From a virus: a stretch of DNA of 35,023 bases. The position numbers were made by a program, and so were the translations under genes. The notes beneath the pieces are model-generated. The model ran no database searches. It worked only from the letters and a program-made list of their open reading frames with translations, and had not been told where the DNA came from. This document shows, in pieces, positions 4,284 to 6,136 of the stretch. The stretch is from positions 1-35,023 of the IMG/VR virus record IMGVR_UViG_3300006336_000012. One strand, 5' to 3'. How positions within the stretch are numbered: the stretch's first letter is position 1; each line of letters begins with the position of its first letter.

Positions 4284-4544
4284 TTAAAGCATATCTTGTT
4301 TCCAGTTGTAATCATATGTTTCATTATTCATTGGTATGTCTGGCAGAATTTTTTCTTTGGAGACTGTGATAACTTCTTTCTCCCAAAACTCTAATTCTTT
4401 CATGAGTTCATTGTTTGCTCCTATTAGATATTCAATCCGCTTTTCATATTTGGATTCTATCTCTTCTTTTATCTGTGCTCTTAATCCTTTTTCGTAGACA
4501 AGTGCTGCTAGACGTTTTGTTCTGTGTTGGTTAACCTTATTCAT
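4284..4544 (-). CDS. Coiled-coil protein, 86 aa
   Basis: Residues about 8-65 are strongly helical and charged (EKGLRAQIKEEIESKYEKRI, then YLIGANNELMKELEFWEKEV), suggesting a long coiled coil. It starts 30 nt downstream of the GNRA-capped stem at 4574-4632 and is the only gene right after the 1.3-kb non-coding region. The ribosome-binding site is weak (AAAAGAAT). The function is not known. Confidence 0.72.
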   Translation of the reverse strand: MNKVNQHRTKRLAALVYEKGLRAQIKEEIESKYEKRIEYLIGANNELMKELEFWEKEVITVSKEKILPDIPMNNETYDYNWKQDML

Positions 4545-4559
4545 ATTCTTTTTATTTTC

Positions 4560-5298
4560 TAATTAATGTTTGGATGCTGGTTACTGCTCTTGCGAGCACC
4601 CACTCTACTTTTAACCCAACCCTCACCAGCATATATGCTCAGGAAATTTTTTATTTATTAAAGAGTCGCGACATGCTCAGGATTTTTCATATACATCCCC
4701 CCCGGGGTCCCCCTCGCTATCTCTACCAGGCCCCCCGGCCCGTCGGTCGGCGACACACATAGTTCAGCGTGCGGAAAGCCCCAGCGTGAAGTGCACCTGT
4801 GACTTTTTTTAATCAAATTTTCATAGATCTTGTATGGGGGTCGACGGGGTGACGTACTCTAGCGACACACCTTCCCTCACCCGTGTCTGAGAGGCTTGTT
4901 CCCTCTCTCTGATCCCTGATACTCATCTCAATCGCCGTGACATCAGCCGTCTACGTCCCGTTACTCCGTGTCTTACTCATGTCCCTTAGTCGAACATGAA
5001 CCACGTGGGTACTCCGTAGGTCACTAGCGGGGGTGATCCAGAGAATCTAATCTCCCCTATTTTATACGGTCAACTCTACCTTAAATATCTTACCTTTTTG
5101 CCTCTCTAACTTTCAGGGGTTAATTTAAATTTTAATCTTATCTCTTGAGGAGCTTCTACTCCCGGCGCTCCCCCATCCGGGCCGACCTATTTGCATTAGT
5201 GCCGATTTAATTTGTTGACCCAACATGTTCGCCGAGTCTCCTCAGTAGGAGCCGGGTCGTTCCCATTCAAAAGGGATTCATTCATTTATTTAACTTAC
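4560..5298 (-). ncRNA. Candidate large structured non-coding RNA, about 0.75 kb
   Basis: The stretch has no convincing gene, is much richer in G and C than the flanking genes, and starts at the predicted initiation point of the promoter at 5305-5333. Helices seen include 5217-5221/5254-5258 around hairpin 5238-5242/5247-5251, 5161-5165/5177-5181, 4937-4941/5020-5024 beside 4951-4955/5015-5019 around 4978-4982/4994-4998, 4889-4894/4902-4907, and 4864-4868/4883-4887. The 3' part holds an 8-bp stem (4574-4581/4625-4632) with an inner GCAA-capped hairpin. A 10-bp direct repeat (TCCTGAGCAT) occurs at 4635-4644 and 4673-4682. Length and setting recall the ornate large phage RNAs such as GOLLD. I cannot align it to any family, so that link is only an analogy. 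Confidence 0.55.
4574..4632 (-). ncRNA. GNRA-capped stem element before the coiled-coil gene
   Basis: Minus-strand ATGCTGGT (4632-4625) pairs with ACCAGCAT (4581-4574) over 8 bp. Inside, GCTC-GCAA-GAGC (4597-4586) forms a hairpin with a GNRA tetraloop. The element ends about 30 nt before ATG 4544. It could be the 3' domain of the large RNA or a leader that controls the coiled-coil gene. Confidence 0.55.
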
Positions 5299-5304
5299 AC
5301 TTAT

Positions 5305-5333
5305 ATTATATCAGGACTGTGCGGAAATGTCAA
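5305..5333 (-). promoter_or_regulatory. Sigma70-type promoter for the large RNA region
   Basis: TTGACA (5333-5328) and TATAAT (5310-5305) are 17 bp apart on the minus strand, with TGA before the -10. Transcription would begin near 5298 and read straight into the 0.75-kb non-coding region. The downstream AAGTGTAAGTTAAATAA is shared with the copies at 1663 and 2989. Confidence 0.9.
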
Positions 5334-5422
5334 GTTTATTCGTGCTCGCATCAATCTTTTTTTTGTCTCCAGATATTATCAGATCAATTAAGTCATGTCT
5401 GATTTATCGGATCACACTGTAT

Positions 5423-5451
5423 ATTGTATCATCATAACGGGTCAATGTCAA
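5423..5451 (-). promoter_or_regulatory. Second, tandem sigma70-type promoter
   Basis: TTGACA (5451-5446) and TACAAT (5428-5423) are 17 bp apart on the minus strand with TGA before the -10. It stands 118 bp upstream of the promoter at 5305 and points the same way, so the non-coding region is served by two promoters. Confidence 0.8.
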
Positions 5452-5821
5452 GTCTTTTCTTTCGAGTGGGCGTTTTTTTCGAAACATTCAATGTGACGTT
5501 CTTATGTCACCCAGATTGCATGCGAGGAATGGCAGACAGAGTTCTCAGATTGCTCTATATGCTTTCTTTTTTCGTCGTTTGATATTTGGTACGGGCAGCC
5601 CGGTGTAGGCAGCCCATCGTCGGGGGGTATTTGGGAGCTTGGATTGTTTTGCTGGATTTTTCGCGGCGCTCGCGGGCGCTCCACTTACTTCTGTGGTCTA
5701 TTATCTGATACTGAATGAGTAATAAATTGACTTTACGTGGGGAGAAACGCCATGTATCATTAGGAAACGTGTATCATTAGGGAACATGTGTCATTAAGAA
5801 ACACTTTTTTCGCTCTCTGTT
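5452..5821 (-). other. GC-rich stretch without a convincing gene
   Basis: No frame here shows phage-like coding. It contains a hairpin formed by GGGCTGCC and GGGCTGCCC (about 5594-5616, with a U-U mismatch), a weak GTGAC/GTCAC hairpin (about 5493-5510), clustered GCGCC repeats near 5664-5682, and three 17-bp repeats at 5754-5804. It may be the 3' end of the transcript from 5822-7643, or part of a regulatory region for the promoters below it. Confidence 0.4.
5754..5804. repeat. Three 17-bp imperfect direct repeats
   Basis: Three head-to-tail 17-bp units lie at 5754-5770, 5771-5787 and 5788-5804, each of the form GTATCATTAGGAAACGT with two to five changes. They abut the end of the gene at 5822 and are followed by CTTTTTTCGC. 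Spaced by about one and a half helical turns, they look like binding sites for a DNA-binding protein (iteron or operator), though a small satellite is possible. Confidence 0.7.
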
Positions 5822-6136
5822 TCATCTTTCTTCTGCTCTTATCTGAAACCATGCCTCATCAGGGAATTTCTTTCCAATCAAAGGGTCATTATTAGTCTTC
5901 TTGAGCATATGAATAGTGTCCTTTCTTTGATGTTCTGGCAGTTCTAAAATCATCTTTCTAAGAAGCGACCAATTTTCGCTTAATGCATGTCTCTGTAGAA
6001 TCTGTAGCATTTCATGTTGCTCTAGATGTTCAGGGTGTTTCACTTGACCATCAGGATGTGGCAACAGTATATGTCCTAGTTCTTTATCTGCTGCTCTCTT
6101 TTCTGTGGCGTTTTCAAAGTTGTATTTGTGTATCAT
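5822..6136 (-). CDS. Hypothetical protein, 104 aa
   Basis: This is a soluble, His-rich, mostly helical protein (start MIHKYNFENATEKRAADK, later HPEHLEQHEMLQILQRHAL). The start overlaps the stop of the oxygenase gene (ATGA), which suggests a coupled role. There is no signal peptide, Cys motif or catalytic signature. The family was not recognised. Confidence 0.72.
   Translation of the reverse strand: MIHKYNFENATEKRAADKELGHILLPHPDGQVKHPEHLEQHEMLQILQRHALSENWSLLRKMILELPEHQRKDTIHMLKKTNNDPLIGKKFPDEAWFQIRAEER

Follow-up and report, generated by a model that had tools for sequence, protein, structure and literature searches.

Ocean-VII is the tip of a larger RNA with a predicted pseudoknotted core in marine phages

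An RNA feature on the minus strand of a marine phage genome, running from position 5298 down to about 4560 between two small genes, is a member of the Ocean-VII family, greatly extended; only the 41-letter tip of this RNA had been catalogued before, under that name. The window, which is the whole stretch of DNA analysed here, corresponds to the 35,023-bp virus record IMGVR_UViG_3300006336_000012 of IMG/VR. By computation we established the promoter, the fold, the conservation across phages, the swapping of modules and the independence from neighbouring genes. The feature is most likely a noncoding phage RNA with a pseudoknotted core, serving in trans as a modular scaffold or decoy, a reading to which we assign a probability of about 0.6.

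Nearly every gene of the window is carried by the minus strand. The T4-like genes include an RNase H/flap exonuclease, whose closest counterparts are in Methylophilales phage Melnitz and in cyanophages, and a RuvC-like resolvase closest to that of pelagiphage Mosig; a Nol-like carbamoyltransferase is also encoded. A preliminary description of the sequence had pointed to a GC-rich stretch of about 740 nt devoid of a convincing gene, and both observations hold: the GC content is 48.2%, compared with 34.9% for the window, and tops every other 739-nt stretch sampled in it, while the longest frames reach 52-62 aa and no core frame stays long throughout the homologues. The tRNA nearest to the feature is a single tRNA-Val at 1386-1311, about 3.2 kb off. 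A tRNA-Asn was also predicted at 18149-18073 (minus), overlapping the end of a 276-aa ORF (18962-18132) whose sequence, on our own reading, resembles an asparagine synthetase.

The preliminary description had made no family match by eye, but the region does have one in Rfam. The Ocean-VII match (Table 1) spans the whole 41-position model, from 4925 to 4885, its score exceeds the gathering cut-off, the hairpin and the 5' strand are the same, and four of the six pairs of hairpin H6 change on both sides in the relatives. The Rfam model consists of 41 nt with one hairpin, whereas here the 5' strand would contribute one of the two strands of a pseudoknot and the motif forms the 3' tip of a roughly 240-nt core, itself part of an RNA of about 330-740 nt. 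A sensitive Rfam scan of the region gave nothing beyond Ocean-VII. Rfam gave no support for the GOLLD class suggested earlier: the covariance models of GOLLD, ROOL, OLE and HEARO were all without a match, either at the gathering cut-off or at E up to 1.

Table 1. Features of the RNA and its surroundings in the window
Feature	Position	Strand	Evidence or remarks
Upstream tandem promoter, TTGACA-17-TACAAT	5423..5451	-	11/12, TG extended
Main promoter, TTGACA-17-TATAAT	5305..5333	-	12/12 sigma-70, TG extended; predicted start ~5298
5' outer region, only in window, L002, L003, L012	5079..5298	-	Alignment; other loci lack a good match
Entry strand GACC...AAAAUAG, conserved	5058..5071	-	Also present in L027, L031, L034
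Hairpin H1, stem 5057-5051/5036-5030, loop 5047-5037 in predicted pseudoknot	5030..5057	-	5/7 pairs change on both sides
Long arm H2-H5: CGC.UA.GUGAC/GUCAC.G.GCG, CUAC/GUAG, CGUG/CACG, hairpin CAUGUUC-GACUAAG-GGACAUG	4933..5029	-	Covariation
Pseudoknot 3' strand AUCAGGGAUC, in 5' half of Ocean-VII, predicted to pair with 5047-5037	4911..4920	-	97% of cells paired
Ocean-VII RNA (Rfam RF03092), includes hairpin H6 (4907-4902/4894-4889)	4885..4925	-	69.4 bits, cut-off 53.5
Exchangeable hairpin H7, between conserved GAC and GUCG	4842..4887	-	Three unrelated versions among relatives
3' outer region, GNRA hairpin 4597-4586	4560..4841	-	Alignment; no intrinsic terminator found
Small downstream gene, 86 aa, no PHROGs match	4284..4544	-	L013-L018: homologues without such an RNA in front

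Relatives were drawn from IMG/VR by means of Ocean-VII patterns, conserved-core patterns and the neighbouring protein. Ocean-VII was found in 16 other records (L002-L009, L012, L019, L021, L022, L024-L026 and L029), two of which (L002 and L003) are nearly identical to the window, and, judged by sequence, the core recurs in many other marine phages. In L005, L007-L009 and L026 a tRNA-Cys is situated about 2.1 kb away from the RNA. The pattern matches in L020, L028, L030, L035 and L050-L054 were regarded as chance, as was a second weak match in L004 (17.4 bits, E 0.011). Searches elsewhere were negative: blastn of window positions 4300-5500 and of the L027 and L021 regions against GenBank phages gave no match, the covariance model found nothing significant in six isolate myovirus genomes, and plasmids contained no match to the 3' region. 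When 84,980 prokaryote species were scanned once with an exact pattern, two matches came up, both within coding sequence and judged to be chance.

The near-consensus promoter that had been placed at the start of the RNA was confirmed, with its 17-nt spacer and TG extension, together with the second of the two tandem promoters. Promoters of this type occur throughout the phage, about ten good matches being found on the minus strand, so the promoter predicts strong transcription without being unique to the RNA. At 1291, 1691, 3017 and 5333 (minus) the initial transcribed sequence that goes with the promoter is conserved as well (TGATATAATATAAGTGTAAGT). A further non-coding stretch (5822-5452), located upstream of the tandem promoters, holds three imperfect tandem repeats of approximately TTAATGAYACATGTTYCC (5760-5822, minus). 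Good promoters also lie directly 5' of the RNA in relatives: they are 12/12 in L004 and L005, L021 shows three tandem 12/12 promoters (L021:8685-8955), and L029 has an 11/12 promoter before the RNA and a 12/12 one further upstream. An additional, apparently structured stretch is located between the first two promoters of L021. Terminators 3' of the RNA were detected by scan in L004 and L021 and by eye in several other relatives. Read from these promoters and terminators, the RNA is probably transcribed from the minus strand. For most relatives, transcription is predicted to begin about 32-96 nt 5' of the core, with an apparent terminator within about 60-300 nt past H7; several are short, with about 330-410 nt separating the promoter and the apparent terminator.

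To define the fold, 14 core sequences were aligned (A1) and a structure of 47 pairs was assigned. In the core, of about 240 nt (5074-4842, minus), H1 with its predicted pseudoknot is followed by a long arm, then by the Ocean-VII hairpin and finally by an exchangeable one. Given the 14-sequence alignment, RNAalifold came up unprompted with an extended pairing that joins the first hairpin's loop to the Ocean-VII 5' strand, and addition of the H1 stem by hand turns this fold into a pseudoknot, in which GAUUCUCUGA would pair with AUCAGGGAUC. Standard pairs occupy 98.0% of the pair cells, and 19 of the 47 pairs change on both sides. The covariation score was 0.294, compared with 0.136 for shuffles (0 of 500 as high) and at most 0.072 for slid structures; because A1 is made up of related sequences, significance is somewhat overstated by the shuffle control, while the slid control, which preserves relatedness, gives an advantage to a structure that was itself derived from these sequences. 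The folding energy of the feature is no better than that of shuffled sequence (z = -0.26), and the structure could therefore not have been established from energy.

Several exchanges illustrate this covariation. H2 reads GUGAC/GUCAC in the window versus GUCAC/GUGAC in the other sequences, the arm pairing CGC/GCG alternates with CCC/GGG, and the closing pair of H5 changes from C-G to U-A in L025. H7 always runs from GAC to GUCG, three unrelated modules having been swapped within these fixed boundaries. In the pseudoknot (5047-5037 with 4920-4911) six pairs are invariant, another three show compatible variation on one side, and one, broken in the window, changes from U-A to C-G in three sequences; being nearly invariant, the pseudoknot shows change on both sides at that pair only, and on comparative grounds the predicted pairing is well, though not richly, supported. 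In the short-form relatives a 5' AGAGAAU could pair with the same H1 loop instead. The local and nested helices and the coaxial pair noticed earlier correspond to real nested helices and two abutting hairpins backed by covariation, which is strong across homologues in the core.

Beyond the core, the window and L012 carry extra regions of about 220 nt (5') and 280 nt (3'); in the window the latter holds the GNRA structure noted earlier at the 3' end, a GCUC-GCAA-GAGC hairpin inside an 8-bp outer stem. L012 has the same outer regions as the window and a different core, so the outer parts are conserved and the core appears to have been swapped by recombination. Within the 3' region, the block 4790-4698 (minus, about 93 nt) differs from L012 by about one change, compared with roughly a fifth of positions in the cores, suggesting that it is unusually constrained or was recently exchanged. 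The outer regions are represented by only two truly distinct sequences and are conserved in close relatives only, so covariation backing is confined to the core: of the structured phage RNA of about 740 nt originally proposed, the portion of about 240 nt stands, by covariation and by the lack of a conserved frame, and the remainder is unproven. An intrinsic terminator 3' of the RNA was sought in the window and L012 and none was found; in the window the RNA may therefore run on through the 86-aa gene, and 4560 stands as a provisional 3' end, taken from the preliminary description.

Three further records (L027, L031 and L034) contain sister RNAs, which share the H1 hairpin and the arm and do not have the Ocean-VII hairpin. 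A covariance model built without the pseudoknot (R1) scores them at E 1e-9 to 1e-12, values that are not independent of their choice, since they were first found by exact core patterns; these patterns cover the arm only, and R1 also matches GACC..AAUAG and H1. When the sister RNAs were added, in an alignment fitted to the structure, 99.3% of cells were paired and the score was 0.312, compared with 0.125 for shuffles. In L034, CUAC/GUAG is replaced by CUGC/GCAG. The L027 RNA has a predicted length of 593 nt from promoter to terminator, and its H1 loop GGGAC could pair with a downstream GUCCC in the same topology, where there is no variation between the sequences. Positions 983-1450 of L027, 3' of the sister RNA, and their counterpart in L034 form a second conserved non-coding cluster. 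It includes an element resembling a tRNA T-arm (GGTTCGACTCC...GGGGATTG) and a further conserved one, GGACGGGAAGGGGTGGGC; ARAGORN and Rfam name neither of the two.

The compact core, the conserved loops and the exchangeable arms fit a trans-acting scaffold or decoy. According to this proposal, host RNA polymerase would transcribe the RNA strongly, and probably early, from the tandem consensus promoters. In the noncoding product H1 would close, and its loop would then pair with the Ocean-VII 5' strand across the long arm abutting H1, to be followed by two more hairpins, H6 of Ocean-VII and the exchangeable H7. The resulting rigid core would present the conserved loops GACUAAG and GAACAAR, the internal loop ACGGCYGAU and the interchangeable arms to a putative partner, which may be either a protein or a ribonucleoprotein, of host or phage origin. 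More tentatively, the H1-pseudoknot-arm core might define a new superfamily, with the Ocean-VII RNAs and the L027/L031/L034 class as two branches with interchangeable outer modules, that would serve as a rigid, possibly self-assembling scaffold seizing host ribonucleoprotein early in infection.

GOLLD is known as a closed 14-mer cage, located in or beside a tRNA island. GOLLD and ROOL are large pseudoknotted RNAs of phages and prophages that form cages and have no known function (PMC12286853), and the RNA described here could likewise assemble with itself, its homo-oligomers being held by loop-loop and A-minor contacts and enclosing or displaying other molecules. The phage setting, strong promoter, pseudoknot and GNRA loop, as well as the lengths of the complete window RNA and the L027 sister RNA, agree with such assembly. 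We consider it unlikely, given that the GOLLD and ROOL models do not match, that several relatives fall below the size of known cage RNAs and that a conserved self-complementary loop was not seen. A further difference is the much smaller covariation-backed core. As for the tRNA surroundings, the window has a single tRNA-Val about 3.2 kb from the RNA and no tRNA array directly beside it.

A cis-acting leader of the small downstream gene, either riboswitch-like or an attenuator, would agree with the lack of a terminator between the RNA and the 86-aa gene in the window and L012. The genes downstream of the RNA differ between groups of relatives, in which it is closed by terminators, and homologues of the 86-aa gene occur without it, making a cis role quite improbable. 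A very improbable reading is an RNA that poisons translation like the lambda bar minigenes, whose AUG-NNN-stop frame ties up initiating ribosomes and tRNA. An AUG-NNN-UGA, downstream of a strong promoter, does precede the conserved GACC by 16-18 nt in 12 of the 12 short forms examined (L004-L009, L019, L021, L024-L026 and L029), with four different middle codons (AUC, UUC, AAA and GAU) and a chance of 3-14% in shuffles of the six short forms tested; but the frame is absent from the window, L012, L027 and L031, the Shine-Dalgarno appears weak or absent in most, the short-form sequences are related, and the covarying core is left unexplained. The lambda bar minigenes are not known to have a structured core. 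A CsrA-type sponge, considered for its several AGGGA motifs, was set aside: the best conserved motif is paired in the predicted pseudoknot, and others are missing in L019, L025 and L029 (read from the alignment). That the region encodes a protein is hardly tenable, for although frames of 52-62 aa exist and one in the 3' region apparently stays open in L012 (read from the alignment), the core frames are not conserved in homologues and the changes track base pairs, not codons.

To our knowledge, few large structured phage RNAs have been described, and GOLLD and ROOL are without an established function. The present analysis supplies boundaries for the RNA, together with a covariance model and natural short forms of about 330-410 nt that lend themselves to probing, pull-down and cryo-EM. 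What was a small orphan motif in Rfam turns out to be the tip of a modular RNA, predicted to be pseudoknotted and provided with strong promoters of its own, in many marine phages, and a second, longer RNA has the same core.
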